Shown in pieces: positions 3,874-14,321 of a stretch of DNA of 64,000 nucleotides. The notes below the pieces were generated by a model, which saw only the letters and a program-made list of their open reading frames with translations, did no database searches and was not told the origin of the DNA. Position 1 is the stretch's first letter, and each line of letters begins with the position of its first letter. The stretch comes from Bacteroidales bacterium (GTDB taxonomy: Bacteria > Bacteroidota > Bacteroidia > Bacteroidales > TTA-H9): the NCBI GenBank assembly GCA_030656615.1, contig JAUSOY010000078.1, positions 1 to 64,000 on the forward strand, in the 5' to 3' direction. A program made the translations under genes and the position numbers.

Positions 3874-4677
3874 CTATCGTATCTCTATTACAAGCGTTGT
3901 ATTCATCATTTCAATGCTAATTTCTCTGGCCTGACGGTCGGAAAATGTTTTTTTTTGCGCTATAGACGATTCTACAGACTGAAACTTTGAAGCCTTCTCC
4001 ATTTTGCCAACAACATTTAAAAATGCAGATTCCGCAGATTGCTGATCCAAGTATCCCAACTGAACAGATATAATTCCTGATTCATAACTCTGACTGTAAT
4101 ACCCGTCAACAAATCCATCGGGACAACTTGCACCAAAAGAATACAAATTATTTAAGGCCAACGGACCTCTCAAATATCCACGGATCTGCTCCGTATTTAC
4201 TGATATAAATGGTTTAATTGCTGAATTGTTAAGTAACAGTTTAACAAAACTTTGACTAAAGCTATTTAAAGCTTCACGGGAGGCATTCCCACTAATTACG
4301 TAATAGGAAGATCCACTATGAATCATCCTGAAATCTTCCCCTATCGAAATATGACAATTATCAACATATTCTATACGATTCTTACCGGTCCTAAGAAAAT
4401 AGATTCCCCATGCCGCTAAAGAATCCTTCATTTTGTATTCTTCCAGATGAATTTTCATGCCATCATTATTGGAAAAATCACGGACCTCTACCCTATCAAA
4501 ACCATACTCCAGATACAGTTCGGCGCCTCCATCTATCAGAAAAAATAAATCTTCACCGGGGTATGTTTCAATAGAAAGCTGTTCCCAGCCACTTATTTGT
4601 AAATTCTGATCCTGAGATTTGGCAGAACTACAAAGCAACAGCGAGGTTAAAACCAACAAAACAAAAGCTTTAAGCAT
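3874..4677 (-). CDS. Exported DUF6599-like protein
   Basis: 267 residues with a signal peptide (cleavage near SAKSQ, residue 21). The body fits DUF6599: an EDLFFLIDGGAELYLEYGF stretch, then a segment about an active-looking DSLAAWGIYFLR strand and a long antiparallel region. The start codon shares one base with the stop of the upstream DUF362 gene (TGATG), so translation is coupled. Family members often sit next to DUF362 or Fe-S redox genes; their biochemical function is not established. Role inferred only from pairing. Confidence 0.6.
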   Translation of the reverse strand: MLKAFVLLVLTSLLLCSSAKSQDQNLQISGWEQLSIETYPGEDLFFLIDGGAELYLEYGFDRVEVRDFSNNDGMKIHLEEYKMKDSLAAWGIYFLRTGKNRIEYVDNCHISIGEDFRMIHSGSSYYVISGNASREALNSFSQSFVKLLLNNSAIKPFISVNTEQIRGYLRGPLALNNLYSFGASCPDGFVDGYYSQSYESGIISVQLGYLDQQSAESAFLNVVGKMEKASKFQSVESSIAQKKTFSDRQAREISIEMMNTTLVIEIR

Positions 4678-5582
4678 CAGAATTCTAATATTTTAACTTT
4701 ACTTAAATCAGGTTCGCCAAGTCCGTGTTCAGCAGCTTTCGCCGTTGTGTACACATCTTCAGGTTCAAATCCAATCAATTGAGTACAATAGGCATCCATA
4801 GCCACGAGATCAGTGCCAACCACTACCCTATCATGTTTGGCAATTTCGCCGGGTCCGCCAGGACCATTCGTAATAATTACCTCAGTAACATCGGTTACTA
4901 TCAAATCAGGTTTTCTTACAAGGTTTAAATCTGCAATACACTGGGCCAAAAAATCATGATCGTTTCTTTTAGGTCCTTTCAGATGCATTCCTACATTGGT
5001 AGCTCTTGTACAAACTCCCATCATATTTTTTACTGCACAGGTTAGCTTCGTGGTTGCATGATGCTTAGCAATAGGAACATTAATAAGCACATCCACTTCG
5101 AAAAGTGCTTTAACAATCTCAGGTTTTACTAAAGATTTAGCACCCATAATTGTATCAAGTCTTATGTAATCCGTTTCATTATATGTAGCAGGAAAAACAT
5201 TGGATTCCACCATTTTAACCTTTGCAAGTATGTCTTTAAATCGTTCGTACAAACTGCTGCGCTGCCAATACTCGTTTGTGATCATTTGCAGACCAATAAC
5301 TTCAGAAGCACCGGCTTCAAAACATTCTACCACGACAGCAATGGCAATATCCGGATTAACGTAGGCACCTTTTTCATCGAAGGCTGAATTAATCAGAATA
5401 CCAACCTTTTGACCCGGTTTAACAAATTGTGTCATACCACCAAGTTTCGAAATTCCGGTCTTCGCAGCATAGTAGAAATCAGTGCTTTTAACTGATACAA
5501 TGGTATTGCTCGCGGTTTGCGCCCAAGCCAGATTGACAAAAAGGCAAAAAATGGATACAAATAATAAAGCCTTGTTTTTCAT
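4677..5582 (-). CDS. Exported DUF362 domain protein
   Basis: About 301 residues from the ATG at 5582, chosen over one 27 bases upstream because it begins directly with a signal peptide (cleavage after NLAWA). The mature part matches DUF362: GMTQFVKPGQKVGIL near the N-terminus, VDVLINVPIAKHH and LTCAVKNMMGV in the middle, and a VVGTDLVAMDAYCTQLIG segment. The family is often fused to ferredoxin domains; no Fe-S motif is present here. Export is typical of Bacteroidota members. It forms an operon with the DUF6599 gene. Substrate unknown. Confidence 0.75.
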   Translation of the reverse strand: MKNKALLFVSIFCLFVNLAWAQTASNTIVSVKSTDFYYAAKTGISKLGGMTQFVKPGQKVGILINSAFDEKGAYVNPDIAIAVVVECFEAGASEVIGLQMITNEYWQRSSLYERFKDILAKVKMVESNVFPATYNETDYIRLDTIMGAKSLVKPEIVKALFEVDVLINVPIAKHHATTKLTCAVKNMMGVCTRATNVGMHLKGPKRNDHDFLAQCIADLNLVRKPDLIVTDVTEVIITNGPGGPGEIAKHDRVVVGTDLVAMDAYCTQLIGFEPEDVYTTAKAAEHGLGEPDLSKVKILEF

Positions 5583-5927
5583 AATATTATATTCTAATAA
5601 ATCAATCAATGTGCGTAAAAAACTACTTCAGCGATTCAATGATTCTCTTAAAAATCAAATCTCTGTTTACGAATGTAAATTAACAAACTTTTTGTTGATT
5701 CAACAAATTCAATTAAAGCATGTCTCACAAATTCAACTAAATATAGTTTCAATTGTATACTTTTGAATGTTACGGCGATAATTTTTGCAAGACAATCCAA
5801 TTTCTGATGAAATGATTGATTACTTCAGTCGTTCTTTACACCGTATACACTTGTTTAGTTCATAATTCATAATTTAGATAATTTGCATGCCGTGGTGTAT
5901 TATTATTTATAAACTCTGTTCACTCAT
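5583..5927. other. Divergent intergenic region
   Basis: AT-rich DNA between the DUF362 gene (minus) and the metallophosphoesterase gene (plus). It presumably carries both promoters. A TAATTTG-like box with short spacing lies near 5877-5884, but there is no exact match on the plus strand. Open frames here are low-complexity and not convincing. Confidence 0.35.
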
Positions 5928-7043
5928 ATGAAACAATCAGCCTTTTTAATATTTTTCAGCATCGTTTTAGTGATTTACGCACTCTTTAATACCTTCTTGT
6001 ATTATAGAACCAGTAGTATGTGGGGTCAAAAGTACGTTTGGTATGCTGCTGTTTTTACAATCTTGGCTCTGGCGTATCCTGTAGCAAGAATTCTGGAGCG
6101 TTCTTCCCCCGGCATTCTAAGTACAGCATTTCTATGGATAGGTTCGTTTTGGTTGGCCTTAATGGTATATATATTTCTGTTTGTTATTCTGTATGAGTTG
6201 CTTCGAATTCCTGGTATCCCCAACAAAATCAATAATTTTGGCAAGATATACTTTTTGGGGATGATGCTTATTTCCTTCATTGTTGTTATTGCCGGACATT
6301 TTAATGCTCGTAATCCACGGATTACAACCATAGAAATCCCTATGGCAGTTAGTAGACCATACACCCTTGTGATGGCCTCGGATTTGCATTTGGGAACCCT
6401 TGTTGGAAAGTATCGACTTGGAAAACTGGTCGATTTAATACAATCTCAAAATCCTGATATGGTGATTTTTGCCGGTGATGTTCTGGATGAAGATGTTGGA
6501 CCAGCCATTCGTCAAAATCTGGGTGGATTATTGTCTGAACTAAATCCACCACTCGGGAAATGGGCCATAACCGGAAATCATGAATATTATGGTGGTTTGG
6601 GAGAATCTCTTGACTTTTTGAAGGATAATGGCGTTCATGTATTAATGGATACTTTTAAACTTATTGATAATCAATTCATTATTCTTGGGCGCAAGGACAA
6701 GGAATCCAATCGCATTACAGGAAAAAACAGAAAGGAAATTCATGAACTTTTGGAAAATATTCCAGAGTATTTGCCCATCATATTATTGGATCATCAACCG
6801 TTCGGACTACAAGAAATTGCGGATGCTGGAATTCGGCTAAGTTTATCGGGGCATACACATCACGGGCAACTATGGCCATTTCAGTATCTTACAAAGAAAA
6901 TTTTTGAATTAAGCCATGGACTTCTTAAAAAGCAAGAAACCTATTTTTATGTTTCCTGTGGAGCTGGGACCTGGGGACCAGCTGTAAGAACCTCATCAAG
7001 ACCGGAAATTGTCCGGATTCAGATAATTCCTCAGATTTTCTAA
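5928..7043 (+). CDS. Membrane-anchored metallophosphoesterase (YkuE-like)
   Basis: 371 residues. Four hydrophobic segments (about 4-24, 38-56, 66-92, 105-125) precede a calcineurin-like phosphoesterase domain. All metal-binding motifs are present: SDLHLG (151-156), GDVLDE (183-188), GNHEYY (216-221), DHQP (288-291) and GHTHHGQ (308-314). This matches the YkuE/COG1408 family; related enzymes hydrolyse lipid-linked phosphates, but this substrate is unknown. The 3' end overlaps the convergent CotH-like gene by four bases (CTAA holding both stop codons). Confidence 0.85.
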   Translation: MKQSAFLIFFSIVLVIYALFNTFLYYRTSSMWGQKYVWYAAVFTILALAYPVARILERSSPGILSTAFLWIGSFWLALMVYIFLFVILYELLRIPGIPNKINNFGKIYFLGMMLISFIVVIAGHFNARNPRITTIEIPMAVSRPYTLVMASDLHLGTLVGKYRLGKLVDLIQSQNPDMVIFAGDVLDEDVGPAIRQNLGGLLSELNPPLGKWAITGNHEYYGGLGESLDFLKDNGVHVLMDTFKLIDNQFIILGRKDKESNRITGKNRKEIHELLENIPEYLPIILLDHQPFGLQEIADAGIRLSLSGHTHHGQLWPFQYLTKKIFELSHGLLKKQETYFYVSCGAGTWGPAVRTSSRPEIVRIQIIPQIF

Positions 7044-8056
7044 TTTTTCCGACAATGATTTAAGAAATATTCCTTGGCTTTTTCTTTGTCGGATAGCAAT
7101 TTATAGAAATCGTCGATGTATGCGATATTCTCTTTTTGGGTTTTGATGTTTTGCATTGGATAATCCACCATCAGTTTATATATGGCTGGCCTGGCTTTAT
7201 AAAACTCATTTATAGCCCATTGGATAATATATTCCTGCTGACAGTGGCCATTGTAATACCTCTGACGAACTTTGGTAATTGGCAGATGGGGAGCAGGAAT
7301 GGCATCCGGTGAATCGACAAAACCACTGAAATCAAAATCGTAAGGAATAGCTATTGGTGCTGATCCTGACTTAGTCATAAGTTCGATATTATGCAATGTC
7401 TTGACTGACCAATCTGTATTACCAGCCATAAACTGAAATATATTTATCAAAGTCATGCTACTATCAGCCGTAAAACCCGGGTGAATATTATGCACTTTGA
7501 GAATTTTTCCTCCAAAAGTTTCAGCCAAATCATCATCATCCATGATAGCAAACGCCAGAAATTCTTTATCGCTTCCTTGAATTTGTGTATCTGAGTAATG
7601 AATCCGTAATAATCGCACTTTAAAGCTATACGGATTGATCGATGAATACATTTTATATAAAAGAAACTCTTTAATCACTCGGTCATTAGCATCTTCAATA
7701 GCAGAATTGCAATGCGTCACCAATTTTAGTTTTTTTATACCATCGAATATGGTATTTTTTGATTGTTTCGCATTGATTTTAAGGCGAATCGGATAAAAAT
7801 TACAATGTTCGGCATTACTCCTAAAATTGCCTCTACGACTAACTTTGACATTTATCTCATGTATACTATCCTTCTCTTGAAAAACGAGCTTACCTCTGAA
7901 TTCTTGCGCCTCCCTCCTGCTTTCAAGGAATTCGGACATTGGAAATTGCAATTGCACATTCAATATCGAATCAGAGGTAAAAAGTTCCTGAGCATTAATA
8001 AAACCTGTGTTTAAAATGCACAAAAAGACAATAATTATCGAGTACAATTTTTTCAT
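7040..8056 (-). CDS. Exported CotH-like kinase homologue 1
   Basis: 338 residues with a signal peptide (cleavage after FINAQ, residue 23). It is a paralogue of the protein at 9843-10874. Kinase-like landmarks of the CotH family are visible: an N-terminal beta-sheet with KVSRRGNFR, KLKLVTHC and IKEFLLYKM, then GNTDWS (212-217) followed by HN (222-223), and YDFDFSG (239-245). These correspond to the N-x-D catalytic-loop and D-x-D metal-binding regions of CotH kinases, which phosphorylate spore coat proteins in Bacillus. It is last in a four-gene operon, 132 bases after the phosphatase. Assignment is by motif; the phosphorylated target is unknown. Confidence 0.6.
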   Translation of the reverse strand: MKKLYSIIIVFLCILNTGFINAQELFTSDSILNVQLQFPMSEFLESRREAQEFRGKLVFQEKDSIHEINVKVSRRGNFRSNAEHCNFYPIRLKINAKQSKNTIFDGIKKLKLVTHCNSAIEDANDRVIKEFLLYKMYSSINPYSFKVRLLRIHYSDTQIQGSDKEFLAFAIMDDDDLAETFGGKILKVHNIHPGFTADSSMTLINIFQFMAGNTDWSVKTLHNIELMTKSGSAPIAIPYDFDFSGFVDSPDAIPAPHLPITKVRQRYYNGHCQQEYIIQWAINEFYKARPAIYKLMVDYPMQNIKTQKENIAYIDDFYKLLSDKEKAKEYFLNHCRKN

Positions 8057-8188
8057 AAATCTGTAACTAAAAAGCGCTCAAAAAATTATTTTCAGGATTA
8101 CAAAATTATGTGGTGCTTAAAAACATTTCAGTAGAAACAGAAACTTATCGATCAGTATTGTGACAACCAAATAAGTCCGAATTCATTA

Positions 8189-9814
8189 TTAGCGATCACT
8201 TTGCTGTAAAACGGATTCAGTTGTTAGAAGCTCTTTTTCACTGGTTTTTGAAATTCGATAGAAATTGTTTTCTTCGATTAATAATAATTGCTCTTCGATG
8301 CCCTGCCTTCCGAAAGGAACATTTACAGCATAGAGTTTTCCTGAAAATCGTTGTAGAATGCTAAAAATTTCAGAATGACCGACTATGATAAATTTTGAAT
8401 TATACTGCATGAGAACTGTATCGACAAACGCTTCAGAAATAATATCCTGAGGGTCATATTCTTTAAGCATATTACGATACCAAAAAGGTCCTTTTTCAAG
8501 CAAAACAAGACTTTCGAGCGGTGTTACAGTCGATTGAAACGTGTTCAGGAAATTTCGTACCAAATCATTAATTTCATGGATCGGAAGATGCAACGAAAGT
8601 AATTCCGGGCTAATTCCTGCGTGAACAAATAGTATATCGTTAATTTTAAGCATTGTAACCTTGGATCTGAGCCATCTTCCCAGCTCGGTATCCTGATTAA
8701 ACAAACTTCCATAATTCAGGAAAAAATAATCACTGAGCATTTTATACTTTGGCGATAGATACGTATTATCACCTAATAATACCATAATTTCGTGATTTCC
8801 AAGGATAACATGAACTCCTCCACCGGCAAGAGCCGCCTGGTCTTCGAGATGACGGATAAACCAGAGTGTTTCCGTAACTTCTGGTCCTCTGTCAAAAATA
8901 TCGCCGATAAAAACAAGGTGGCCTTTTCCCCATTTCCAATTTTTGAGTGAATCAATAACTTTTGCGGCAATTAATACATCCGTCAGAGCTTTATATTTTC
9001 CGTGAATATCGCCGATAACCATAATGGGCTCATTCGTTTCAATTGAATCGGGAGCAGCTGGCCAATCTCGGTAAATCGTCACACCCATACGATGAAAAGT
9101 ATCCTGAAAATGATGTGGATATTTGATATCATTTATAAGCCTGTCGTGCATTCGCAATGCACAATTTCCGGTATCGTGTAAAAACCATTGCAACTGAACC
9201 GTACTATCATTTATATAACGGATATGTGGACCTTCGGCAAAAGATTCAAAAGGTTTGGCATCAAATTGCCGTGACATCATAATCTTTACATAATCAATAA
9301 GCTTAGGACTATTGGCCACCGTAAGTAAATCAAAGACTTTTTGTCCACGATTATTTGCCAGTAATAAACTTGCCCCATGATCAATCAGAAGTTTCATCAA
9401 TTCATAAGAATTTCTGAAAAGCGCATAAAATACAACAGTTTCGCCCTTATAATCCAGTAGGTTAACATCGGCACCATAGGAAATGAGAATTTCAGTCATT
9501 TTAAACTCACCTTTGCGTACTGCCCAATGCAATGCTGAGCGTCCTTCGGCAAGAATATCAGGATCTGCTCCCTTTTCGAGTAAAAAACTCAACATGGTAA
9601 TACTCCTGTTTGCCGCCGAGGATGTTAAAAGAGTATGCTTCTGGTGTTTATCCAAAAAAGAATTTACATTCAGCGTTCCTTCCTGTAATAGCGAATTGAT
9701 ATATGCCGTATCTCCTTGTTTAATGGCCTTACTTATATTTTTAGGGAGTTGATCGGCATTCACAGTAAAAGGTGTTATCAAATAAATAATAAAGATTAAA
9801 ATACGTATTCTCAT
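8189..9814 (-). CDS. Exported ankyrin-repeat PPP-family phosphatase
   Basis: 541 residues. A signal peptide (1-20) leads into three to four ankyrin repeats (about 25-165, with GRSALHWAVRKGEF and ISYGADVN). A linker follows, then a PPP-type phosphoesterase with GDIHG (268-272), GDIFDRG (304-310), GNHE (339-342), HAGIS (398-402) and a late VGHSE. The catalytic domain resembles Shewanella-like protein phosphatases. Ankyrin repeats normally bind proteins, so this looks like an exported phosphoprotein phosphatase with its own substrate-binding arm. It lies between two CotH-like kinase genes (28 bases after one), which supports an opposing role. Target unknown. Confidence 0.8.
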   Translation of the reverse strand: MRIRILIFIIYLITPFTVNADQLPKNISKAIKQGDTAYINSLLQEGTLNVNSFLDKHQKHTLLTSSAANRSITMLSFLLEKGADPDILAEGRSALHWAVRKGEFKMTEILISYGADVNLLDYKGETVVFYALFRNSYELMKLLIDHGASLLLANNRGQKVFDLLTVANSPKLIDYVKIMMSRQFDAKPFESFAEGPHIRYINDSTVQLQWFLHDTGNCALRMHDRLINDIKYPHHFQDTFHRMGVTIYRDWPAAPDSIETNEPIMVIGDIHGKYKALTDVLIAAKVIDSLKNWKWGKGHLVFIGDIFDRGPEVTETLWFIRHLEDQAALAGGGVHVILGNHEIMVLLGDNTYLSPKYKMLSDYFFLNYGSLFNQDTELGRWLRSKVTMLKINDILFVHAGISPELLSLHLPIHEINDLVRNFLNTFQSTVTPLESLVLLEKGPFWYRNMLKEYDPQDIISEAFVDTVLMQYNSKFIIVGHSEIFSILQRFSGKLYAVNVPFGRQGIEEQLLLIEENNFYRISKTSEKELLTTESVLQQSDR

Positions 9815-9842
9815 GCAATAATTTAAAATAGTTCATCGGTAA

Positions 9843-10874
9843 TTACTGAAGACATTCATGACTAAAAACACTTTCGTATCGCTTTTGGTTCTCAATGAGT
9901 TCAAAAAAATCATCAAAATACTTAATTAACTGACGTTTCCCCTTTGAACTCAGGTGTTGATCATCTTCAATCAGTGAATAGATTTGTGTTTTCAGTTGAT
10001 TGAATTTATATAAGTTTTTACGAATGTCGTTCATATTCCGGCAAAATCCCATATAATAGCGCTGGGTAACTGAACGCAAATTCAAATGAGGCTGAGGGCG
10101 GGCATAAAAGGCATTGACAGCCCCTGACCAGTCAAAATCGTATGGTACCGGAAAAGGAGGCTCAAACGGACTGGTACTCAAAATAATAATATTATGTGGT
10201 TCTGTAACTGACCAGTCGGTATTTCCAATCATGTACTGAAATATATCAATCATATTCATTGCAATACTATCAAATTCAGCGGCCCTGACGTTGGAAGCGT
10301 TTAAAATCTTTCCTTGATTTCTTTTCGCCATATCATCCGCATCTTCTAATAAAAAGCCTAAAAAAGTAATGCTGTCGTTTGGCTTTGCCGGATTAAGTAT
10401 ACAAATATCGACGATCCTCACTCTTAAACTATAGGGAGTCAGAAGGTTGAGAATTTTATACATAAGGAACTCCTTAATCAGATAATCCTGATATCTTGGA
10501 GAATTGATCCGACATGGATTAACCAATTTTATTTTGTTTTGATTGTTGAAAACCGATTTTTCAACTTCTTTGGATTTAAAATCAATTTTTATCGGAGGGA
10601 AGGAACAATTTTGAGGATCGCAACGAAATTTACCCCGCTTATTTACTTTAATATTGAAATTGTGATGACTCCCATCATAATAGCTTAATTGAGCTTTAAA
10701 GGTTTTAGGATTATTACAGTCTGATTTCTTCAAAGAATCAAGGGAAAATGAAAGTGTGATTTTCAGTGCTGAATCGGACTCAAATAAATTTTGAGCCTGT
10801 AACGTAACAATATAAAACGTCAGCATGAAGCAAACTGCCGGAATTTGAAGATGTTTAAAACTGACTTTTATCAT
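9843..10874 (-). CDS. Exported CotH-like kinase homologue 2
   Basis: 343 residues with an N-terminal signal sequence (cleavage near LQAQ, residue 28). Same architecture as the paralogue at 7040-8056: NKRGKFR (78-84), IKLVNPC, IKEFLMYK, GNTDWS (217-222), HN (227-228) and YDFDWSG (245-251). Its start overlaps the stop of the DUF4956 gene by four bases, so it is translationally coupled to that membrane protein. CotH domains and DUF4956 proteins are known to co-occur, usually with a VTC polyphosphate domain; none is seen here. Kinase activity is an inference. Confidence 0.6.
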   Translation of the reverse strand: MIKVSFKHLQIPAVCFMLTFYIVTLQAQNLFESDSALKITLSFSLDSLKKSDCNNPKTFKAQLSYYDGSHHNFNIKVNKRGKFRCDPQNCSFPPIKIDFKSKEVEKSVFNNQNKIKLVNPCRINSPRYQDYLIKEFLMYKILNLLTPYSLRVRIVDICILNPAKPNDSITFLGFLLEDADDMAKRNQGKILNASNVRAAEFDSIAMNMIDIFQYMIGNTDWSVTEPHNIIILSTSPFEPPFPVPYDFDWSGAVNAFYARPQPHLNLRSVTQRYYMGFCRNMNDIRKNLYKFNQLKTQIYSLIEDDQHLSSKGKRQLIKYFDDFFELIENQKRYESVFSHECLQ

Positions 10875-11533
10875 TTTATAGGGCCTGAATCAAAGGATTG
10901 TTGTTCGAGTAATCCGATTTTATATTTATCGTAAAAGTAATAGATGGTGATTTTTACATTGTTCTTGGCAAAATCAATTTGTTCTATTTCAACCCTTTTA
11001 ATCTTGAGACCGGTCCGACGTTCCAAATCCTCCAGAAAAAGCCTCTTGTTCTGAGGTTTGATGTAATCAAGATTATCATAATAAATAGTTTTACTCGATT
11101 CATGACGATACATCCAGAAATACTCACCAGACCAAACAATAGCTATCAAACAAAAATTGGTTAAAACTAATTCAGCAATGCTGATGCCAGATGTTAATGC
11201 ATTCATAATGGAAATACCTATAACGACAAAAAGATAGGTCATTTCTTTTATGGGCATGGTATCTGTCCGGTACCGGATAATCCCAAAAACGGCAAACAAA
11301 CCTAAAGCAAAACCCAGCTGAAGTTGAACATTTTCGAGTAAATAACTAAGAAAAAAAACAGTAGAACCAATGAGCATGTAAGTAAATAAGTAATTCTTCC
11401 GCCGCGCTGTGGAATAATAAATATACCTAACAACAATAAGAAGCATTAGAAAATTAAAGCTGCTGCGTACAATCAGCTCATACAAATTCTTTTCGTTGAT
11501 TAAAGGAATTCCGATAAATGTATATTCACTCAT
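10871..11533 (-). CDS. DUF4956 membrane protein
   Basis: 220 residues with four to five hydrophobic helices in the first 150. The family signature LGLFAVFGIIRYRTD and the following PIKEMTYLFVVIGI are clear. A cytoplasmic-looking C-terminal region (about 155-220) ends the protein with a ferredoxin-like alternation. DUF4956 proteins commonly neighbour CotH kinases and VTC proteins, where a partner role at the membrane is suspected. It is the first gene of the operon and overlaps the next gene by four bases. Confidence 0.85.
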   Translation of the reverse strand: MSEYTFIGIPLINEKNLYELIVRSSFNFLMLLIVVRYIYYSTARRKNYLFTYMLIGSTVFFLSYLLENVQLQLGFALGLFAVFGIIRYRTDTMPIKEMTYLFVVIGISIMNALTSGISIAELVLTNFCLIAIVWSGEYFWMYRHESSKTIYYDNLDYIKPQNKRLFLEDLERRTGLKIKRVEIEQIDFAKNNVKITIYYFYDKYKIGLLEQQSFDSGPIK

Positions 11534-11631: not shown

Positions 11632-12627
11632 TCATTTTATCGGATAATAAATTTCGGTTATCCATTTCGAAGTATCTGCTTCATGAATGGGATCGGTAAC
11701 ATATACTTCCCAAGGAAATCCCTCCCATTGGACATGATTTTGGTCGAAATACTTTTGAATAGCCATATGTGTTTCACCCGTTTTTTCATATGAACCAAAA
11801 TGTATGGCTTTTCCAACCTTTACTGGCGGAAGAACTCGGAAATTCAAACGACCTTTCTGATTAATCTTATGAATATTGGAGATAGGAATTCCGGCTTCCA
11901 TCACAAAAGGTTTCGTATCATCCCATGAGTAATAAATGGTGAATGGAGCACCCGCCATTTCAAGTTGATTTTTAAGTGTGTATTGAAATAATTCACCAAA
12001 CATTCCGCTCATGACGGAATCCATTTGATAAACCATTGCAGAGTCTTTAACTATAATGGCATAACGCTGAGGAAGATTCAAAATTTCGACTTCTATCGGC
12101 GGAATTGCTTCGGCAACTTTTGTCAGTTTTGCAAAACCAGAAGAATACATTTTCTGCATCATTCCATTCATAAATAAGCCCAGAAATCGGCCAAATGGAT
12201 AGGACAGTTCGATCATATCTGTACTCCAGGTAACTTTAGTACTATCACCTTCGCGGCTAAAAGTAAAGATACTTACCGCTTTACCCTGATCATAAAAATC
12301 AAGATCGGTCTTAATAAATGAATTTGGTATACTCTCCACAATCGTTTGCATTCCATTTCCACTTTTTTCGGAGGTCCATTTCATGATTGCTCCTATACCT
12401 GCTTCCGAACCTTCATACGTAGTAACTATGGTAGTATCCATTTCAGCAAATGGTGACCATGCTTCCCAGTTTCTGAAATTATTTACCTGTTCGAAAATAA
12501 CCTTCTCCGGAGCCTTAATAAATGTAGAACCCTCGGTATGAACATCCTTTGGGAGGAAAAGGCAAAGCAGAAGGAACAAGACAATTATTGCTAAGAGTAT
12601 AATACCAATAGTTTTCAATGCTTTCAT
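11632..12627 (-). CDS. SRPBCC (polyketide cyclase-like) plus GyrI-like domain protein
   Basis: 331 residues. One N-terminal membrane helix (about 5-25) ends in the FLPKDVH stretch typical of membrane-anchored SRPBCC proteins. An SRPBCC domain follows (about 30-170, with NFRNWEAWSPFAEMD), then a GyrI-like/AraC effector-binding domain (about 175-331, ending in a YVTDP strand and ITEIYYPIK). Both halves bind small hydrophobic ligands in other proteins; no DNA-binding domain is present. It is monocistronic, with a -7 box and its own terminator. Ligand unknown. Confidence 0.8.
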   Translation of the reverse strand: MKALKTIGIILLAIIVLFLLLCLFLPKDVHTEGSTFIKAPEKVIFEQVNNFRNWEAWSPFAEMDTTIVTTYEGSEAGIGAIMKWTSEKSGNGMQTIVESIPNSFIKTDLDFYDQGKAVSIFTFSREGDSTKVTWSTDMIELSYPFGRFLGLFMNGMMQKMYSSGFAKLTKVAEAIPPIEVEILNLPQRYAIIVKDSAMVYQMDSVMSGMFGELFQYTLKNQLEMAGAPFTIYYSWDDTKPFVMEAGIPISNIHKINQKGRLNFRVLPPVKVGKAIHFGSYEKTGETHMAIQKYFDQNHVQWEGFPWEVYVTDPIHEADTSKWITEIYYPIK

Positions 12628-13142: not shown

Positions 13143-14321
13143 ATGAGCAAGGGCTTTATTTTCAGTATGCATTATATGGAAAACATGTTAAGGTTCGCCT
13201 TTTCCATGCTTCCAAATCTTCAGAAAGGTATTGCCGTATTCAGAAATGAAAAGGAAGGCGGCTTAAATGCTCTTTTGTTAGAAGCTACTCAGAGGCAACA
13301 TAATCCTGGATTTCTGGACGAAAGCCTTGAAATACTTAACATTAATCCGTATCAGAGTTATTTCAGTAAAAAACTGGAAGAAAAGACCGATCTAATGTGG
13401 CTGTCTACATCCGATCTTCCCTTTATTGTAACATCAACACAACGAAAAATTGATGTGTTTTCAGAACTTGAAAACACCATCTTACAAATCCGATTTCAAT
13501 CAGGAGACCAATCAGATCCTGGTTTATTATATCTGTTTTTTAATCCGAGAATGGCCAATTTGGGTCTGGCTCATGCTGAAAAACCATTGGGAGCCGATCA
13601 TAAAGCTCTGATTGAGCAAATGGTACAGCGAGCATTATATACTTATTCAAGCGTATTGCTTCATGAACAAAGCGTCTTTGATTCTATTTCTGCAAATACC
13701 CGGAATCTTATAAATGAACTGGTTGATACACGTTCAGAGATTAAAAAGACTCGTGAAGTATTCGGTACAAGTATTCTGACCTTATGTGAAGAATACCTCA
13801 ATCAATTTTCCATCGAAAAATCCATTCAAGCAGTTTATACTCCCGCAGCCCGCGACAAACTTAGTAATTATTCCGGCTCAATATCGAATCTTAAGCAAAT
13901 CATCTCTAAAGCATTTGTATTTGCACTCTTTGTTGCTGATAACCATCAAAGTACAAATAGGATTGCCATCGATGACTGGCACCTTGATTTAAGAGCAGAG
14001 ACCGTTGATATTCAAGACAAAACCATGAGTCCATCGGGTATTAGAAATCACAAAACGTTTCTTCTTTTGGATAAACTTGAGGGGGCAGCGGTAAATGTAT
14101 TAGCTTCCAGGTTGCCATTAACAGGCGATAATGTTGGAAAAGCATGTCCGCAACCAGTTTCAGCACCAGCCATCTCTGATTCTATTAAAAAGCATAAAAT
14201 AAGAATAATTCAACTTCTTGAGCTTCATCCGGATAAATGGCCTATAATCCGTCAGCAATTCAAGCCCATTACGAATATTCTTGTGCCGCTTTCTTCCGAA
14301 ACTTCATCAATGACAGGCTAA
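13143..14321 (+). CDS. Unknown protein, putative regulator with C-terminal DNA-binding-like segment
   Basis: 392 residues, no signal peptide or membrane helix. The first 180 residues look like a small alpha/beta sensory (GAF-like) fold, followed by helical DTRSEIKKTREVFG. The C-terminal 80 residues contain LEGAAVNVLASRLPLTGDNVG, PVSAPAISDSIKKHK and a final DKWPIIRQQFKPI. This could be a helix-turn-helix, but I cannot name the family. It overlaps the convergent radical SAM gene by four bases and faces a sigma-54 two-component operon. The regulatory function is a guess. Confidence 0.5.
   Translation: MSKGFIFSMHYMENMLRFAFSMLPNLQKGIAVFRNEKEGGLNALLLEATQRQHNPGFLDESLEILNINPYQSYFSKKLEEKTDLMWLSTSDLPFIVTSTQRKIDVFSELENTILQIRFQSGDQSDPGLLYLFFNPRMANLGLAHAEKPLGADHKALIEQMVQRALYTYSSVLLHEQSVFDSISANTRNLINELVDTRSEIKKTREVFGTSILTLCEEYLNQFSIEKSIQAVYTPAARDKLSNYSGSISNLKQIISKAFVFALFVADNHQSTNRIAIDDWHLDLRAETVDIQDKTMSPSGIRNHKTFLLLDKLEGAAVNVLASRLPLTGDNVGKACPQPVSAPAISDSIKKHKIRIIQLLELHPDKWPIIRQQFKPITNILVPLSSETSSMTG

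Follow-up and report, generated by a model that had tools for sequence, protein, structure and literature searches.

The closest described relative of the kinases considered here is CotH of Bacillus (structures 5jd9 and 5jda; Pfam PF08757), which works in the spore coat. CotH retains the positions of residues D166, N171 and D184 of PKA and stacks ATP on aromatic residues that include Trp245 (PMC12189002), and its D228 and D251 mutants are inactive (PMC7821199). Genes for CotH, a polyphosphate polymerase (VTC) and DUF4956 adjoin Pel polysaccharide loci in streptococci and clostridia (PMC7112168). The DNA analysed here, hereafter the window, comprises the first 64,000 nucleotides of contig JAUSOY010000078.1 from a Bacteroidales bacterium. 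Four minus-strand genes occupy positions 7040-11533, in the transcription order DUF4956, CotH-like kinase A, ankyrin-PPP phosphatase and CotH-like kinase B, with successive gaps of -4, 28 and 132 bp (Table 1). An earlier account made from the letters of the DNA, here called the sequence-only reading, had reported four tightly spaced genes in this place (its CotH-like 2 is our A, its CotH-like 1 our B), and every one of the open reading frames was recovered. The operon probably, though by no means surely, encodes a module for reversible phosphorylation and dephosphorylation outside the cytoplasm, with predicted activities and a CotH-like family that lies outside the Pfam model.

The two kinase genes are not recognizable as such by ordinary searches. 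A and B match no Pfam or NCBIfam family, PF08757 has no match anywhere in the genome of the window, and sequence searches of solved structures, run with A or the family profiles, came back empty; the connection with CotH was therefore drawn from predicted structure and profile-profile comparison. The AlphaFold2 model of A, built on an alignment of 85 sequences, has a mean pLDDT of 93.7, and its top match among solved structures is Bacillus CotH (5jd9; Z 21.8 over 268 residues, 2.9 A). The second-best fold is that of H. pylori CtkA at Z 12.9, and the HipA, PI4K and PI3K kinases follow at ~12. Foldseek also places the model with CotH (E 7e-9), the next match being Golgi casein kinase. Profile-profile comparison aligns the family of A, catalytic stretch included, with canonical CotH proteins from within the order (E 1e-4), and the canonical CotH profile aligns in turn to 5jd9. 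The sequence-only reading had called both genes CotH-like and proposed structure prediction as the check; the wide margin by which the model of A adopts the CotH kinase fold, together with the profile match, bears out that identity in spite of the missing Pfam match. By predicted fold, then, A and B are CotH-like proteins outside PF08757 membership. A shares with Bacillus CotH the fold and the catalytic Asp positions, but differs from it in its ~15% identity, its signal-peptide-like N-terminus and the phosphatase gene that accompanies it.

Profile alignments by way of 5jd9 equate D228 and D251 of CotH with D220 and D246 of A. D220 is conserved in 83 of the 85 aligned sequences, the remaining two having Glu, and N228, D246 and D248 are each present in all 85, as is a Tyr or Phe immediately preceding D246. 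R80, R84, E135, Y139, C90 and C121 are also invariant in the family alignment, and a disulfide may link the two cysteines, as would be fitting in a protein destined for export. B, with 35% identity to A, carries equivalents of all of its catalytic residues, and the motifs GNTDWS and PYDFD, quoted in the sequence-only reading, are present in both proteins. The family is large: a scan of genome contigs yielded at least 566 confirmed CotH-like relatives, with Bacteroidota, Gemmatimonadota and Gammaproteobacteria supplying the best ones. As the two members in the window have no Pfam match, similar systems may stay unannotated.

The phosphatase encoded between the two kinases matches Pfam Ank_2 (1e-16) and Metallophos (3.8e-15). 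Its PPP domain (277 residues aligned) is closest to the psychrophilic phosphatase of Shewanella (1v73, 2z72 and 2zbm), with E values of 1e-56 to 1e-57 (1.4e-57 to 2z72). The motifs GDxHG, GDxxDRG and GNH and two later His residues are kept in all eight aligned rows, with GNHD in genome G007; in the window, the GDIHG and GNHE that had already been pointed out are joined by GDIFDRG, HAG and GHSE. By domain similarity and metal-site motifs the enzyme is a Shewanella-like PPP (Shelph). It resembles the described Shelphs (1v73, 2z72) in both of these features, but is set apart from them by its N-terminal ankyrin repeats and its operon with kinase genes.

The pairing of kinase and phosphatase recurs. 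The full order DUF4956-A-PPP-B is found in genomes G003, G004 and G006 and is consistent over two contigs in G007, and in G008, of the same family, DUF4956-A lies near a contig end. Of 198 genomes in the order, the CotH-like family occurs in 31 and this phosphatase in 24 (counting matches that cover the PPP domain); the two coincide in 22 (Fisher p 6e-20), and 15 genomes, belonging to 12 families, carry the genes no more than 600 bp apart. More kinase-PPP pairs are present in Cytophagales and in Gammaproteobacteria, Woeseiaceae included. The PPP gene may be upstream or downstream of the kinase gene, convergent with it (G104) or divergent from it (Woeseiaceae L107 and L113). PPP partners occur both with and without ankyrins: the ankyrin part of the profile is unmatched in the partner phosphatases of Marinifilaceae, Flammeovirgaceae and Woeseiaceae, so that the repeats appear dispensable for the partnership. 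Recurrence in other genomes had been named as a check on the four-gene set, which is found again in its own family, while the kinase-PPP pair extends well beyond.

Partners were counted at the best 80 of the 566 confirmed relatives, by running profiles on all open reading frames (ORFs) of these loci and looking up to 2.5 kb away; being best hits, the 80 loci are non-independent and yield counts, not rates. Beside the kinase there were 21 PPP genes, three purple-acid-type phosphatases and five type I phosphodiesterases (PF01663), as well as DUF4956 at 25 loci, PPK1 at six and VTC at one; representatives of the partner classes were confirmed by Pfam. These numbers come from a recount with profiles of Pfam-identified genes, after a neighbour cluster in high-GC Gemmatimonadota had been dropped because some of its ORFs looked like antisense shadows of the kinase gene. 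The type I phosphodiesterase takes the place of PPP at L070, L098, L099, L104 and L116, and the purple-acid-type phosphatase does so at L054, L100 and L110. The presence of other phosphohydrolase folds beside the same kinase is our strongest argument that kinase and phosphatase function jointly. The widely recurring unit is kinase plus phosphatase, DUF4956 being frequent yet optional. Other neighbours, namely a rhomboid gene (G031, G087, G192), a TPR-SpoIIE gene, an S51 peptidase and bactofilin/ATP synthase genes, were set aside as substrates or partners because they look like shared local synteny.

The signal-peptide-like N-termini, the CotH fold and the CotH catalytic residues together lead to the proposal that A and B most likely transfer phosphate to secreted or envelope targets, which by analogy with CotH would probably be serine or threonine residues of proteins. 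The ankyrin-PPP phosphatase would strip the phosphate again, its ankyrin repeats probably docking the target or a partner, and DUF4956 would probably serve as an inner-membrane component linked to phosphate-donor supply, a role suggested by its being encoded beside, or fused to, polyphosphate-making enzymes elsewhere. The signal peptides named in the sequence-only reading are visible as N-termini of A, B and the phosphatase in which a positively charged start leads into a hydrophobic segment and a site of A-x-A type, and from these we infer that the three proteins are exported. Its wider proposal of reversible extracytoplasmic protein phosphorylation draws support from the fold and the recurrence as far as a kinase paired with a phosphatase is concerned; that the substrate would be a protein, that both enzymes would act in opposition on one target and that they would do so outside the cytoplasm are predictions that go further.

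Several points weigh against this proposal. The signal peptides were called by a heuristic of hydropathy and an A-x-A site. To our knowledge the periplasm is normally thought to be without ATP, and we know of no phosphate donor for such kinases. PPP enzymes are able to act on non-protein substrates. The loci from which the partner counts come are non-independent, and at 35 of the 80 no tested partner lies within 2.5 kb, which implies that the kinase can function with no phosphatase linked to it.

The enzyme classes are known ones, but we could not find their combination, or this CotH-like family, described. No description of a CotH-phosphatase pair was found in the literature searched, and a search on combined phrases for reversible phosphorylation outside the bacterial cytoplasm found no paper, most subscription papers lying outside the scope of both. 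Such phosphorylation is hardly described, and a conserved exported kinase-phosphatase pair, if true, would make it genetically testable.

The phosphorylated target need not be a protein. It is possible, though on the whole unlikely, that the CotH-like enzymes place phosphate on a glycan of the envelope, a lipid or another small molecule, and that the phosphatase reverses or trims the modification. The fold is common to lipid kinases, as the PI4K and PI3K matches indicate, type I phosphodiesterases, which are active on small phosphoesters, adjoin some relatives, and the streptococcal and clostridial sets of CotH, VTC and DUF4956 genes stand beside Pel genes (PMC7112168). However, the closest structure by far is that of CotH, which phosphorylates spore-coat proteins (PMC7821199), and PPP enzymes are mainly protein phosphatases, the closest relative of the one in the window, from Shewanella, being reported as Tyr-specific (PMC535813). 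The Pel-associated sets share with the window a DUF4956 gene adjoining a CotH-type kinase, but the window has two kinases, has no VTC in operon or genome, and has a phosphatase, an enzyme not reported among the Pel accessory genes (PMC7112168). No Pel genes were noticed near the cluster in the window.

DUF4956 connects these kinases with polyphosphate. Of the 109 VTC genes of the order, 103 have a DUF4956 gene within 2.5 kb, and in G080 and G104 VTC, DUF4956 and CotH-like genes, followed by PPP, form one run. In Gemmatimonadota the kinase gene is followed by a DUF4956-PPK1 fusion in L069 (4777-7512, plus strand) and L087 (8960-11773, plus strand), and by a PPK1 with an N-terminal extension in L055, L101 and L102; at L077, DUF4956 and CYTH-PPK1 genes diverge from the kinase gene. 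That two unrelated polyphosphate synthases accompany DUF4956 and CotH-type kinases hints at the importance of polyphosphate or a related donor, and the links among DUF4956, VTC and PPK1 offer a concrete handle on the phosphate source of such kinases. From this a more specific but doubtful version of the module can be framed, in which CotH-like kinases are fuelled by polyphosphate, DUF4956 and a synthase (VTC in certain phyla, PPK1 fused to DUF4956 in others) supplying the donor outside the cytoplasm and the phosphatase resetting the target.

The same neighbourhoods could be taken to mean that the genes handle extracytoplasmic polyphosphate and that reversible protein signalling is not their purpose: DUF4956 and a synthase would make or move the polymer, the CotH-like enzymes would make use of it or attach it, and its degradation would fall to the phosphatase. 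The association of DUF4956 with nearly all VTC genes, the single runs of G080 and G104 and the fusions adjoining the kinase in L069 and L087 speak for such a function. It is nevertheless improbable, since VTC accompanies only two of the nine DUF4956 genes that are linked to CotH-like kinases and many kinase-PPP pairs occur without DUF4956. Moreover, PF09359 has no match in the genome of the window, as the sequence-only reading had anticipated in remarking on the absence of the VTC domain; that genome has one PPK1, unlinked to the cluster, and no PPK1 was found in G006, an incomplete genome that carries all four genes. Given the VTC-containing runs of G080 and G104, the gene set of the window appears to be derived and to have lost VTC, this being the direction of change that we infer. 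The model of DUF4956 itself, of moderate confidence (pLDDT 75.9), has five helices followed by a small alpha/beta domain; a channel or transporter fold was considered, but the best match, at Z 6.7, is within the background for helical models, and no fold is claimed.

That the genes are merely inherited neighbours with no common function is very improbable, for although seemingly unrelated neighbours (the DUF362/DUF6599 pair and the gene at 13143-14321) are also kept in some genomes, the PPP gene, with or without ankyrins, takes up all four orientations described above across 12 families and a second phylum, and other phosphohydrolase folds are found in its place.

Within the proposed kinase-phosphatase module, the second kinase is peculiar to a narrow group, a PPP-flanking kinase B having been seen only in the window's family of genomes. 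In a tree, A proteins form one group (support 0.94) and B proteins another (0.85), so that the duplication is older than the divergence of these genomes. Only the B proteins of G006 and G007 (L011:1276-2343 and L012:1465-2424) have lost the RGxFR, GNTD and PYDFD residues; they sit on long branches, while the gene is still open; judged by these residues, both are likely pseudokinases. Fam20A is a pseudokinase that activates Fam20C (PMC4421793), and the two cases are alike in that atypical kinases with export signals occur as paralogues, one of them dead in some lineages; Golgi casein kinase is, besides, the runner-up to CotH in Foldseek. In the window, however, both copies retain their catalytic residues, and the likeness is one of analogy. 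Because two relatives keep B as an intact gene despite its lost catalytic residues, it is proposed that B probably works together with A, much as Fam20A supports Fam20C.

Table 1. Genes of the operon and its surroundings in the window
Feature	Position	Strand	Remarks
DUF4956 inner-membrane protein	10871..11533	-	220 aa; first of four; 4 bp overlap with CotH-like A gene; PF16316 E 1.6e-50
CotH-like kinase A	9843..10874	-	343 aa; N-terminus like a signal peptide; catalytic D220, N228, D246, D248
Ankyrin-PPP phosphatase	8189..9814	-	541 aa; signal-peptide-like N-terminus; ankyrins ~28-165; PPP domain 255-531
CotH-like kinase B	7040..8056	-	338 aa; N-terminus like a signal peptide; catalytic D215, N223, D240, D242 kept
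SRPBCC + GyrI-like protein	11632..12627	-	hydrophobic N-terminal stretch
Membrane metallophosphoesterase (LpxG/YaeI-like)	5928..7043	+	convergent with CotH-like B; 4 bp overlap at its end
DUF362 and DUF6599 genes	3874..5609	-	signal-peptide-like N-termini on both
Protein without convincing Pfam match	13143..14321	+	392 aa

Some of the surrounding genes recur as well. The SRPBCC and GyrI-like gene, 98 bp upstream of DUF4956 and on the same strand, may be a fifth member of the operon; a homologue of its product adjoins the PPP gene in G082 and G185. Homologues of the membrane metallophosphoesterase occupy the equivalent position in G006 and G007. The DUF362/DUF6599 pair, downstream of B in the window, adjoins B in G003 too; in G110 some 5 kb separate it from the PPP gene. 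Homologues of the 392-residue protein are encoded near kinase, PPP or DUF4956 genes in at least six of 21 compared regions, those of other families included.

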